Part shown: in pieces, positions 23,909-27,623 of the stretch | Position numbering within the stretch: position 1 is the first letter of the stretch | Layout: each line of letters starts with the position of its first letter | NCBI RefSeq assembly: GCF_003339525.1 | Contig: NZ_CP031124.1 | Coordinates: 186,001 to 250,000, forward strand | Length of the DNA stretch: 64,000 nt | Source: Ephemeroptericola cinctiostellae | Lineage (GTDB): Bacteria > Pseudomonadota > Gammaproteobacteria > Burkholderiales > Burkholderiaceae | Reading direction: 5' to 3' | Position numbers and translations under genes: made by a program | Notes under the pieces: model-generated | Databases searched by the model: none | The model's input: only the letters and a program-made list of their open reading frames with translations | Told to the model about the DNA's origin: nothing

Positions 23909-25825
23909 TTACCCCAGCATGTCCAGCTCTTCCTGCAAACCCAACCATTCTTCCTCAATCGGCGCCATCTGCTCAGTCAGCTCTGCACTGCGTGCAATCG
24001 CAGCGGCTAAATCATCCTGCTTATCGCCCACATACGCCTCATCTGAAGCCAGCCAACCTTGCAGTTGATCAAGCTCACTTTGCATGGCCGCCAATTGCTT
24101 TTCCAACTTACTGATCGACTGTTTAAGCTTTTTCTGCTCAAATTCAATCGTCGCTTTGCTTTTGCCTGCGTGTTTATCTGCGACAACGGGTGCGACTTCC
24201 ACGTGTTTTTTTGCTGTTTCAGTCTTGGGCGCGTGATTGGCTTGCTTGTGCAATTGCCAACTTTTTGCGCACCAGTTGCGATAATCATCCAAATCACCGT
24301 CAAACTCACTCACCGTGCGGTCGGCCACCAGCCAAAATTGATCAACGCAATTCGCCAACAAACTGCGGTCATGCGACACCACAATCAATGCGCCGTCAAA
24401 CTGCTGCAACGCCATCACCAACGCGTGGCGCATGTCCAAATCCAAGTGATTGGTCGGCTCATCGAGCAACAATAAATGTGGCTTTTGCCAAATCAGCAAC
24501 GCCAATGCCAAGCGTGCTTTTTCACCACCTGAGAAATTGATGATGGACTCGTTCACACGATCGCCCGCGAAATTAAAACCACCGAGGTAATTGCGTAGCT
24601 TTTGATAATTTTCATTTGGCGCAAGGCGAATCATATGCCACAGCGGTGATTCATTTTCACGCAAGGTATCCAAATGCTGCTGCGAAAAATAACCGATGCG
24701 CAAATTCGGCGCATTAACGATTTCGCCACGCAAAGGAATCAATTCGCCCGCCAAGGCTTTAATCAACGTTGATTTACCCGCACCATTCATGCCCAATAAA
24801 CCGATGCGGTCTTGGCTCTGAATCGTGAACGCAATGTTTTCCAACAAGGCCGTATCGCCGTAACCCAAATCCAACTTGTCCGCCTGAATCTGTGGATTCG
24901 GCAAATCGGCCAATGGTGCAAATTCAAAACTAAACGGCGAATCCAAATGTGCGGGCGCAACCAACTCCAAACGATCCAAGGCCTTGATGCGGCTCTGCGC
25001 CTGACGTGCTTTGGTCGCTTGCGCACGGAAACGGTCGATGTATTTGTGCAAATGCGCCACATGCCGTTGTTGCTGTTCATACAACGCATTTTGTTGCATC
25101 AAACGCTCCGCGCGCGTGCGTTCATACGTTGAATAATTGCCCTTGTACGCCGTCAGCGTCTGCTGCGCTGCCTCAATGATGTGTGAGCACAACGCGTCCA
25201 AGAAATCACGGTCATGCGAAATGATGATTTTTGTCGCAGGATGCGTTTTTAAATAATTCTCCAACCACAGCACCGTGTCCAAATCCAAATGATTGGTCGG
25301 CTCATCGAGCAATAACAAATCCGAGCGACACATCAAAGCGCGCGCCAAATTCAAACGCATCCGCCAACCGCCTGAAAACGAGGTCACTGCATTGCCCTGC
25401 ACATTCTGTGCAAAACCCAAGCCATTGAGCAATTGCGCTGCACGCGACGGCGCGGTGTACGCATCGATCACCGCCATGTCCGAATACACGGTGCCCATCA
25501 ATTCGCCATCATCATCGGCGATGGCCTGCTCCAACTGCGCATTCAGTGCCGCCAAAGCCTCATCGCCCGCCAACACGTAATCCAGCGCCGACTCTTCCGT
25601 ATCAGGCATTTCCTGTGCCACATGCGCAATCGTCCAATTGTTCGGTATGTACACATCCCCTTCATCCGCCAACAATTCGCCGCGCAACAGTGCAAACAGG
25701 CTCGATTTCCCCGTCCCATTGCGCCCCACCAAGCCCACGGACTGCCCCGTATCGATGCGCGCATTGGCTTTTTGAAGTAACACATTATTGCCACGTTGGA
25801 GGCGAAGGTTGGTGAGGGTGATCAT
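23909..25825 (-). CDS. yheS: ABC-F ATPase YheS
   Basis: Soluble ABC-F protein of 638 residues (E. coli YheS is 637). ABC-F proteins bind the ribosomal E site and relieve stalled or inhibited translation. Two ATPase cassettes: Walker A G-R-N-G-T-G-K-S with signature S-F-S-G-G-W-R-M-R-L, and Walker A G-M-N-G-A-G-K-S with signature N-F-S-G-G-E-K-A-R-L. Both have L-L-L-L-D-E-P-T-N-H-L-D. The linker between them is Arg/Gln-rich, and a Lys/Glu-rich coiled coil lies near the C-terminus. ATG at 25825 starts with M-I-T-L-T-N-L. The leader contains a terminator-like hairpin just 15 bases upstream. Confidence 0.93.
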   Translation of the reverse strand: MITLTNLRLQRGNNVLLQKANARIDTGQSVGLVGRNGTGKSSLFALLRGELLADEGDVYIPNNWTIAHVAQEMPDTEESALDYVLAGDEALAALNAQLEQAIADDDGELMGTVYSDMAVIDAYTAPSRAAQLLNGLGFAQNVQGNAVTSFSGGWRMRLNLARALMCRSDLLLLDEPTNHLDLDTVLWLENYLKTHPATKIIISHDRDFLDALCSHIIEAAQQTLTAYKGNYSTYERTRAERLMQQNALYEQQQRHVAHLHKYIDRFRAQATKARQAQSRIKALDRLELVAPAHLDSPFSFEFAPLADLPNPQIQADKLDLGYGDTALLENIAFTIQSQDRIGLLGMNGAGKSTLIKALAGELIPLRGEIVNAPNLRIGYFSQQHLDTLRENESPLWHMIRLAPNENYQKLRNYLGGFNFAGDRVNESIINFSGGEKARLALALLIWQKPHLLLLDEPTNHLDLDMRHALVMALQQFDGALIVVSHDRSLLANCVDQFWLVADRTVSEFDGDLDDYRNWCAKSWQLHKQANHAPKTETAKKHVEVAPVVADKHAGKSKATIEFEQKKLKQSISKLEKQLAAMQSELDQLQGWLASDEAYVGDKQDDLAAAIARSAELTEQMAPIEEEWLGLQEELDMLG

Positions 25826-25840
25826 GTTTAGAATGCAGTA

Positions 25841-25870
25841 AAAAATAAAGCCCGGCAAAAGCGGGGCTTT
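25841..25870 (-). terminator. Terminator-like hairpin in the yheS leader
   Basis: On the minus strand AAAGCCC (25870–25864) pairs with GGGCTTT (25853–25847), with a G·G mismatch and two further pairs inside and a TTTT loop, followed by ATTTTTT. The yheS ATG is only 15 bases further on, so this is not the end of an upstream gene alone; it sits inside the yheS leader. It may attenuate yheS or insulate it from cassette transcripts. Confidence 0.75.
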
Positions 25871-25888
25871 GGGTCAAATTGAAACAGA

Positions 25889-25917
25889 ATTATAGCAAGA
25901 ACAGCGCCAAATAACTA
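25889..25917 (-). promoter_or_regulatory. Probable yheS promoter with extended -10
   Basis: Minus-strand TGCTATAAT (25897–25889) is an extended -10 element; TAGTTA (25917–25912), 17 bases upstream, is a weak -35. Transcription from here would pass through the hairpin at 25870–25841 before reaching the yheS ATG. Confidence 0.6.
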
Positions 25918-25927
25918 AGGGAAAGCG

Positions 25928-25984
25928 GATTAACGTTTGAGGTAAGCGGCGCCGTCAGGCGTCCGCTTGACCGAAGGGTTAGGC
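25928..25984 (-). other. Integron attC recombination site
   Basis: Read on the minus strand, the site starts with R'' GCCTAAC (25984–25978) and ends with R' GTTAATC (25934–25928). Between them, AGCGGACGCC and GGCGCCGCT form a perfect 9-bp stem around the loop TGAC with one unpaired A, the extrahelical base that directs strand choice by integron integrase. Flanking TC and TCA/CTC elements also match classic short attC sites. It lies directly 3' of the cassette gene and 10 bases upstream of the yheS -35. Confidence 0.85.
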
Positions 25985-26000
25985 AGCGCCGTGGCCACGC

Positions 26001-26615
26001 TCATGATGACTTTGACAGTGGAAGCACTTTGGTCTTGCCGTCTGTGCTGTCTCGGAGCGTGCAGAAGAACCCTTGACCAGAAATTGATATGAAGTGTCTT
26101 TCGATGAATAGCTCTATCGCTGCGAGGTCTGCCCACAGCGACTGACCGTGACTCGCGTAGAAGCTCGATCGGTCTTTTGCTACGTAGGGATTCAACTCGT
26201 GCAGCCAGCGATGCATCCGCTGGTACATCGCAATGAACTCTGAGGTTGATATCCGTCTCGCTGGTATGCCTTGAACGGTGATGCTGACGTTGTGCTCAGT
26301 CTGCTCTTCAGCGGTTGCCTTTCGTATGACGCTCGGGCTTGGAAATGCTCGGAGCCCCTTCTTCTGAAGACTATTGAGGATGGTCTCGGCATTCCATTGG
26401 CCCTTGGCATCTCTTGGGATGGATTTCAGCCCCTTCTCCGTTGCAACCAAGCATCCGAATGCAATACCTTCCACGATCTTTCTGCCGTGAAAGGCCGCGC
26501 TCTCCGCGCGACTGAAGTCGCCACCCATCGCCTTCGCGAGGTTGGCTACTACGTCGAATCGATCTCGAACTGACGACATTAAATCGAGGTAGAGCTGCTC
26601 AGGAGGACTTTGCAT
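26001..26615 (-). CDS. Integron cassette-encoded protein of unknown function
   Basis: Unrecognised soluble protein of 204 residues, largely predicted helical, with W-L-H-E-L-N and Q-S-L-W-A-D-L-A-A-I-E-L-F-I-E in its second half. No signal peptide, membrane segment or known catalytic motif was seen. Codon use is foreign to the window: Lys is mostly AAG rather than AAA, Ile uses ATA repeatedly, and Arg uses AGA and CGA. The ATG lies 10 bases inside a GTTAGGC box and has no Shine–Dalgarno site, and the stop is 16 bases before the attC; both are usual for integron cassettes. Transcription probably depends on a promoter outside the cassette. Confidence 0.8.
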   Translation of the reverse strand: MQSPPEQLYLDLMSSVRDRFDVVANLAKAMGGDFSRAESAAFHGRKIVEGIAFGCLVATEKGLKSIPRDAKGQWNAETILNSLQKKGLRAFPSPSVIRKATAEEQTEHNVSITVQGIPARRISTSEFIAMYQRMHRWLHELNPYVAKDRSSFYASHGQSLWADLAAIELFIERHFISISGQGFFCTLRDSTDGKTKVLPLSKSS

Positions 26616-26624
26616 GTCTGCGCT

Positions 26625-26642
26625 GCCTAACGTAGGTTATGC
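26625..26642 (-). other. Cassette 5' junction (R'-type GTTAGGC box)
   Basis: Minus strand GCATAACCTACGTTAGGC. The GTTAGGC (26631–26625) fits the GTTRRRY core where integron integrase cuts, and marks the 5' edge of the cassette. The preceding bases resemble the 3' half of an attC or an attI-like site, but no matching R'' partner was found upstream. Confidence 0.65.
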
Positions 26643-26936
26643 GTCAAAAAGCACTGATATTCTGTTTTCATTTCGCCGTATATCCTGTTTATATTTTTTC
26701 TTAAACCCACTACCATCTAGGCATTGGCTTTATTTGATCTTTAAACCAGCAGAATATCATTCCCATTTAAATCCAACATGCGGCGCGATATTCCTTTGAT
26801 TTAATGCTTGACCATAACAATACATGATTGGAGTTGTTTCATCAACACTGATTAAAACCTTCATCCCATCATTGTGTCTGACACAAGTATGATTTAATAA
26901 TGACTTTGCTCACCATCATTTTATCTTCCATCATTC
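26632..26936. other. AT-rich stretch between cassette junction and azlC, possible gene remnant
   Basis: About 300 AT-rich bases. A minus-strand frame of 35 codons (26864–26757) and its continuation past one TGA to a TAA at 26730 read like a protein C-terminus (ending G-L-K-I-K), so a decayed gene or cassette is possible. The palindrome TTGTGTCTGACACAA (26872–26886) may be an azlC operator. Both are weak calls. Confidence 0.3.
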
Positions 26937-27623
26937 ATGTACCGTCACCCTCACCATTCCCTTTATGCCCTGACCCTTCCCGTCCTTCTCGGCTACATTC
27001 CTCTGGGTTTGACTTTTGGCTTTCTCATGGTCTCACAAGGCATTGCGTGGTACATTCCGATTCTATTCAGTGTGTTTGTTTATGCGGGAGCGGCGCAGTT
27101 TTTGGCAGTGGGTTTGATTGTCAATCGCGTGCCGTTGGCGGATGTGGCCTTGTTGACATTTTTGTTGAATTTACGGCATATTTTTTACGGTTTGTCGCTG
27201 TTTGATTTTTTACCGCACGGGTTGTTGAAGCGGGTGTATTTCATCTTTGGGATCACGGATGAAACGTACTCTTTGATGACCAGCACACCTGAGGTGAATA
27301 AGGACAATGCGTTGTCGGTGGTGGCGATCAATCACCTGTATTGGGTGGTTGGGACGATCATCGGGGCGTTGTTGGCGAGTTCATTGCCGCCCATCAAGGG
27401 GGTTGAGTTTTCGTTGTCGGCGTTGTTTGTGATTTTGCTGGTGGAGCAGATTCGGATGAATCCATCCATGAAGTTGTTGGCGATGGGGATTTTGGCTTGT
27501 GTCTTGGCGACGTTGATTGCGCCGAGTTATTTTTTGGTGTTGTCCAGCGCGATTGCTCTGGCGCTGTTGATCGGTGATTATGTTTTACAGGCAGGCCGTT
27601 CGACGAATGGAGGTGCTGCATGA
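26937..27623 (+). CDS. azlC: Branched-chain amino acid exporter large subunit AzlC
   Basis: Integral membrane subunit of the AzlCD (LIV-E family) exporter for branched-chain amino acids, 228 residues with about 6–8 hydrophobic segments. The N-terminal P-V-L-L-G-Y-I-P-L-G-L-T-F-G and F-V-Y-A-G-A-A-Q-F motifs and L-N-L-R-H-I-F-Y-G define the family. The ATG lies downstream of a short palindrome that could be an operator. No ribosome-binding site is obvious. The stop overlaps the azlD start. Confidence 0.9.
   Translation: MYRHPHHSLYALTLPVLLGYIPLGLTFGFLMVSQGIAWYIPILFSVFVYAGAAQFLAVGLIVNRVPLADVALLTFLLNLRHIFYGLSLFDFLPHGLLKRVYFIFGITDETYSLMTSTPEVNKDNALSVVAINHLYWVVGTIIGALLASSLPPIKGVEFSLSALFVILLVEQIRMNPSMKLLAMGILACVLATLIAPSYFLVLSSAIALALLIGDYVLQAGRSTNGGAA

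Follow-up and report, generated by a model that had tools for sequence, protein, structure and literature searches.

Architecture and foreign codon use of the window cassette

A total of 64,000 nucleotides of the Ephemeroptericola cinctiostellae genome, referred to here as the window, was examined in the present study. Within it, a single gene cassette of 697 bp, measured from crossover to crossover (25934..26630, minus strand), lies between two host genes: a yheS-like gene for an ABC-F type ATPase on its downstream side (23909..25858, minus strand; ABC_tran and ABC_tran_Xtn) and azlC beyond its upstream side (26937..27623, plus strand). The right junction of the cassette is common to a sister locus (L107). 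As proposed in the preliminary description, one gene of 204 residues (26001..26615, minus strand) is enclosed at 26631-25928 between a 5' core GTTAGGC box (26631-26625, minus strand) and an attC site of 57 bp (25984-25928, minus strand), and no Shine-Dalgarno sequence is visible by eye before its ATG. The attC comprises an R'' box, GCCTAAC, complementary to the 5' core at 7/7 positions, and an R' box, GTTAATC, the final TTAATC of which belongs to the host side. The cassette is directly preceded by an element of 64 bp (26624..26687, minus strand) that ends in a G/TTAGGC crossover (the slash marking the exchange point), and this in turn by a block (26688..26827, minus strand) that could contain a cassette promoter. 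The cassette had been placed next to the yheS promoter, which is accurate as to position only; a sigma-70 scan of 25750-27000 found nothing. A search against Rfam at gathering thresholds returned one tRNA and nothing else.

The attC was evaluated with a covariance model trained on ten attC sequences, excluding the window site; three of these were from the genome holding the window (G000) and the remainder from G001, G002, G061 and the loci of two relatives (G000 to G005 being the six genomes of the genus). The model recovered the window site with a score of 51.8 bits (E 1.2e-10), the next-best matches in the window being 14 bits (opposite strand, same place) and 13 bits. Folded as DNA, the bottom strand of the attC (-15.0 kcal/mol, z -3.8) was more stable than all 200 shuffles, and the top strand (-12.7 kcal/mol, z -3.6) likewise exceeded 200/200. 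A hand-made attC scanner also ranked the site first, with scores of 29 (plus-strand reading) and 28 (minus-strand reading); a different place, 18580, likewise scored 28, and no match was returned from three letter-shuffled windows. Judged by these sequence features, the gene together with its attC, in which both the R''/R' and the L''/L' boxes are complementary, is a genuine integron gene cassette. Its designation as a minimal CALIN had to be abandoned: in the relevant passages of the source, a CALIN requires a minimum of two attC sites with no integrase close by (PMC12444791), and the window misses this definition because it holds a single attC, only one match exceeding 14 bits.

The codon usage of the gene is foreign, as first described, with AAG used for 9 of its 12 lysines and ATA for 5 of its 13 isoleucines; across 13 host genes from the window, the corresponding shares are 19% and 2%. 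An ordinary inherited gene is ruled out, since the gene is missing from all 40 relatives searched. Among the relatives of the cassette protein that were listed, 96 of 120 sit on contigs shorter than 10 kb. Of nine relatives of the protein, four (L027-L030) are accompanied by a cassette core or an attC, recognised by eye or with the scanner, and none was seen adjoining the gene in the other five. No match to the cassette or to the 64-bp element was found in plasmids. The cassette protein bears a weak likeness to HEPN domain proteins and may have a HEPN-like fold. HEPN domain proteins carry an R-x4-6-H catalytic motif, and a candidate counterpart, R133-x5-H139, is present within a conserved stretch of the cassette protein, H139 being invariant and R133 nearly so among 13 aligned sequences. 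A sequence search against the PDB gave a single match with an E value of 2.1, and matches to HemN_C and TIM23 were below cut-off and treated as noise. A PADLOC search for defence systems found none.

A distant integrase and dispersed attI copies

The genome is a single contig of 2.72 Mb with ten tyrosine-recombinase matches, none of which falls in the window, in agreement with the initial statement that no integrase is present there. The cassette can be called orphan only in this local sense, however, as a full integron integrase gene (intI) lies 2 Mb away at C1 2246799-2247773, an intact ORF scoring 451 bits against TIGR02249 (cut-off 265); the other nine matches are below the integron-integrase cut-off. 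On one side of intI are an attI site, a cassette gene of the 3-dmu-9_3-mt family and aspS, and on the other a NUDIX-type gene, the aspS and NUDIX labels being our reading of the sequence. Among the six genus genomes, only G000 has an intI over the cut-off. In G002 a contig opens inside the final nine bases of intI, and the gene may therefore be unassembled in that genome; several of the G002 attI copies described below lie close to contig ends. In G004, an attI and a 3-dmu-9_3-mt family gene (45% identical) are kept beside aspS, and no intI was found beside this attI. Several small minus-strand ORFs occupy the place of intI between the attI and the NUDIX-type gene (G004:C254:6231-8878, L141), and these may be further cassettes. 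Outside the genus, G061 encodes an IntI that is 73% identical to that of G000.

A search of the cassette flank against the genus returned matches of about 68 bp, one of which lies exactly between intI and the first cassette. The 64 bp just before the window cassette are thus a near-copy of the intI-proximal attI (93% identical over 68 bp). A model (R1) was built from 17 aligned attI copies and searched against the genus at E ≤ 1.1e-4, scoring the best 150 candidates per genome. From 28 matches, five on the opposite strand over the same palindromic elements and one weak match were removed, leaving 22 copies, of which eight are in G000, four in G001, seven in G002 and three in G004; G003 and G005 had none among their best 150 candidates. 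Five of the 22 were outside the training set (two of them known earlier as partial matches), as were both copies in G061. The eight copies in G000 map to 138103(+), 182212(-), 212624(-, the window), 1273007(+), 1284139(+), 1995883(-), 2246653(-, beside intI) and 2477786(-), and the labels 138, 182, 1272, 1284, 1995 and 2477 are used below for the sites of the matching copies. The window copy scored 90.4 bits (E 9e-19), and we regard it as an attI copy that is predicted from its sequence to be used by IntI. A further, weak match was noted at G000:C1:2215322-2215384 (20.7 bits, E 0.24). Inside the 182 locus (G000:C1:180443-181012, L112) is an extra attI copy with its upstream block, truncated mid-element and without a model match.

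Beyond the genus, a sample of 200 genomes of the family (26 candidates per genome) added attI copies from G061 only (n = 2), and a sample of 399 genomes of the order (13 candidates per genome) gave R1 matches in G000 only. Absence elsewhere is therefore weakly tested, given the even draw of the order sample, which evidently missed the other copy-bearing genomes, the few candidates and the strict filters in both searches; weak attI copies or attC sites may also have been missed because only the best first-look candidates were scored. No exact match to the attI element pattern was found in viral contigs. One G061 copy (a) adjoins its intI and the other (b), on another contig, is followed by a cassette with an HNH_5 gene and an attC whose ACCTAAC matches the GTTAGGT core of the copy. 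In G000 and, as an independent case, in G061, the element separates intI from the first cassette, which is oriented away from intI. The attI copies end at a GTT core, which is GTTAGGC in the window copy, and several others keep GTT and depart from RRRY. The core of the intI-proximal copy (L015:6654-6661) is GTGATGC rather than GTTATGC, and differs at a single base from the sequence complementary to the R'' of its attC.

The attC sites of G000 are coupled to these elements. When the best 150 of 573 candidates were scored genome-wide, all six forward attC matches lay 468-1282 bp downstream of an attI copy on the same strand. Three of the six had been training sequences of the attC model; for the three that had not (the window, 1285484 and 1995358), the probability of 3/3 coupling by chance is about 9e-8. 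The attC searches gave 14 matches, one being the opposite strand of 1274088. In total, five of the eight G000 attI copies (the window and four others) are followed by an attC match, and at sites 2477, 182 and 138, which have none, broken or degenerate attC remains were seen by eye. Thirteen R'' boxes, picked by hand from 24 elements, could be assigned to a 5' core, and ten of these pairs are complementary at 7/7 positions and three at 6/7. G003 has one attC match behind a short remnant, TTTTGACGCATAAATCTAGTTAGC (by eye), though without an attI model match. An unusually long, near-perfect hairpin of the approximate form GGACARTTTTTAAGT...ACTTAAAAACTG is shared by the 138 and 1272 loci (L039, L106) and a G002 locus (L046), in or near the attC-like end and with different genes before it.

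Different cassettes at orthologous loci

The attI copies at five G000 sites have orthologous counterparts that are followed by other genes, namely 182 (G002d), 138 (G002a), 1272 (G002b), 1284 (G001a and G002f) and 1995 (G002c). The 182 locus has an alpha/beta hydrolase gene in G000 and a TIR_2 gene in G002 (Pfam), and the 1272 locus a gene without a Pfam match in G000 versus DJ-1_PfpI in G002. The gene at 1284 has no Pfam match in G000, is HNH_5-like (below cut-off) in G001 and is PIN7 in G002, while at 1995 a G000 gene without a Pfam match is replaced by a different gene in G002, and the 138 locus likewise differs between these two genomes. At 182 the match covers both flanks; at the other sites a contig end or a difference in content limits the comparison to one long flanking match, downstream at 1272 and 138 and upstream at 1284 and 1995. 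In five pairs (1284 with G001; 182, 138, 1272 and 1995 with G002), the homologous stretch extends across the attI and breaks off 3-10 bases beyond the G of G/TT; for 1284 with G002, the alignment ends about 80 bases before the element. The 2477 site is empty in G005, with 137 bp between the aligned flanks compared with 1466 bp in G000. The aspS locus says little about exchange, because the G004 gene there belongs to the same 3-dmu-9_3-mt family. Four unnamed cassette proteins, at 1995 and 138 in G000 and at G001b and G001c, have R-N-x-x-x-H stretches (by eye) resembling those of HEPN proteins; together with the TIR_2 and PIN7 genes, these hint at defence cargo.

In G002, both flanks of the window (yheS) locus match and enclose two other cassettes, with Glyoxalase and DUF6151 genes, which end at the same GTTAATCCGC junction as the window cassette; similarity picks up again within the right-hand part (half) of their last attC, immediately ahead of R' GTTAATCCGC. 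One attC of these cassettes is a model match (a training sequence), the other was identified by eye, and despite the cassettes no attI copy was recognised there by the model. In G005, which has no attC match, yheS is followed by another gene without a cassette. At this locus the cassette is thus replaced in one relative and missing in the other, and the mobile, non-vertical character first ascribed to the gene agrees with both genomes as well as with its absence from the 40 relatives.

A proposed distributed integron and its alternatives

We consider it likely that the chromosome constitutes a distributed integron, in which a single IntI serves dispersed attI sites in trans. Such a system would comprise one intI beside its own attI and seven further attI copies of about 64 bp at other chromosomal positions, with at least one cassette or cassette remnant after each copy; the window shows one docking site. 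IntI, acting in trans, would recombine a circular cassette, by way of its folded attC, with an attI copy at the G/TT, so that the newest cassette would take the first position at that attI locus, and excision followed by replacement at that attI would leave different cassettes in sister species. IntI would presumably bind the distant copies and use them at the present day, and each copy may drive expression of its cassettes. On balance, we also lean towards a broader reading, that in this Burkholderiaceae-like lineage attI itself is the dispersing unit, multiplied into chromosomal docking slots that have persisted as species diverged and that a single integrase refills in trans.

The main alternative is that cassettes entered only at the intI-proximal attI, and that blocks of attI plus cassette were then copied and exchanged by homologous recombination, leaving the distant copies as relics or passive carriers. 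Upstream DNA is indeed shared by copies 182, 2477 and 138 (about 155-325 bp) and by the window and 1272 copies (about 140 bp; the window block is common to the copy at G000:1273007, with 68% identity including the element), and as to how the copies arose we infer from these blocks that some probably did so by block duplication. The three sites with attC remains that look decayed by eye also fit passive copies, and the end of homology at the attI end is expected under either model. Against this, the upstream flanks of most attI copies are unrelated, the intI-proximal copy has at most about 85 bp in common with the remaining copies in the genus, and orthologous sites hold different genes next to a persisting attI and flank. 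We consider this alternative unlikely. Homologous recombination between copies may also have moved some cassettes, an effect that sequence comparison does not separate from the action of IntI. As a separate observation, a repeat, GCGGGAATGA, occurs 243-255 bp before copies 182, 2477, G002a and G002d, and a longer string, GCGGGAATGACG, is absent from the window.

The preliminary description had instead proposed a lone cassette at a secondary (attG-type) site, unrelated to its flank. The mobile single cassette with a good attC stands, and its solitary state and the lack of any of the ten recombinase genes in the window would suit that proposal; the cassette is, however, docked in an attI copy. 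The preceding 64 bp match the attI of the genome at E 9e-19 and the element recurs at seven further positions, with an attC match following at four of these, which makes a secondary site highly improbable and, with an attI copy at the junction, rules out insertion into random sequence. Equally little credence can be given to the view that the 64-bp repeat is no recombination site but serves in regulation or as a promoter and precedes cassettes by coincidence, as suggested by its inverted arms and by letters conserved well beyond the core, because it separates intI from the first cassette in two genera, terminates at a GTT core and marks the point where the content of orthologous loci changes. 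An RNA-like hairpin was rejected: the inverted repeat of the element shows no covariation and the window copy folds like its shuffles (the intI-proximal and one G004 copy folded better than theirs).

A sedentary chromosomal integron has an intI, a divergent attI and attC-bearing cassettes mostly of unknown function. The G000 system shares these parts and departs from that plan in having eight dispersed attI copies rather than one beside intI, each copy bearing a short array, from a single cassette to a few. More generally, an integron is regarded as one platform with one integrase, one attI and one array, of which mainly the cassettes nearest the platform promoter are expressed. The parts of an integron are also set out in passages of PMC12444791, where CALINs of Xanthomonas are described as cassette clusters that lie at a distance from intI, occupy positions shared between species and can be mobilised in trans. 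The conserved positions are interpreted there as a sign of ancestral integron activity, and what fixed them is left unnamed in those passages (PMC12444791). The G000 cassettes resemble these CALINs in lying far from intI at loci conserved between species; unlike them, each group hangs on an attI copy, an element not named in the Xanthomonas passages, and the window site has one attC (PMC12444791). The window cassette is off the integron platform, as in insertions at attG or secondary sites (PMC12901181, PMC12444791), except that its site is a near-identical attI copy and not degenerate genomic sequence. As reported in PMC12901181, IntI1 acts on attI-type sites that class 1 integrons carry within unusual cassettes. 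These Delta-attI-type cassettes likewise have an attI sequence in an odd place, where IntI1 recombines it, but as described there the site follows the ORF and is part of the cassette, whereas the window copy is a docking site ahead of the cassette (PMC12901181). No account of multiple or dispersed attI sites was found in searches of open-licence PMC papers, and novelty is claimed only to that extent.

Single-cassette sites such as that of the window would fall under a two-attC threshold, and asking whether the intI-proximal attI repeats elsewhere is a search that can be run on any integron-bearing genome. Dispersed attI copies would give a concrete reason for integrase-less cassette groups at conserved loci. 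They would also lift the one-platform limit, allowing many cassettes to be first at once in different neighbourhoods. If this is true, the integron would be a genome-wide network with many first-position slots, rather than a means of gene capture confined to one place.
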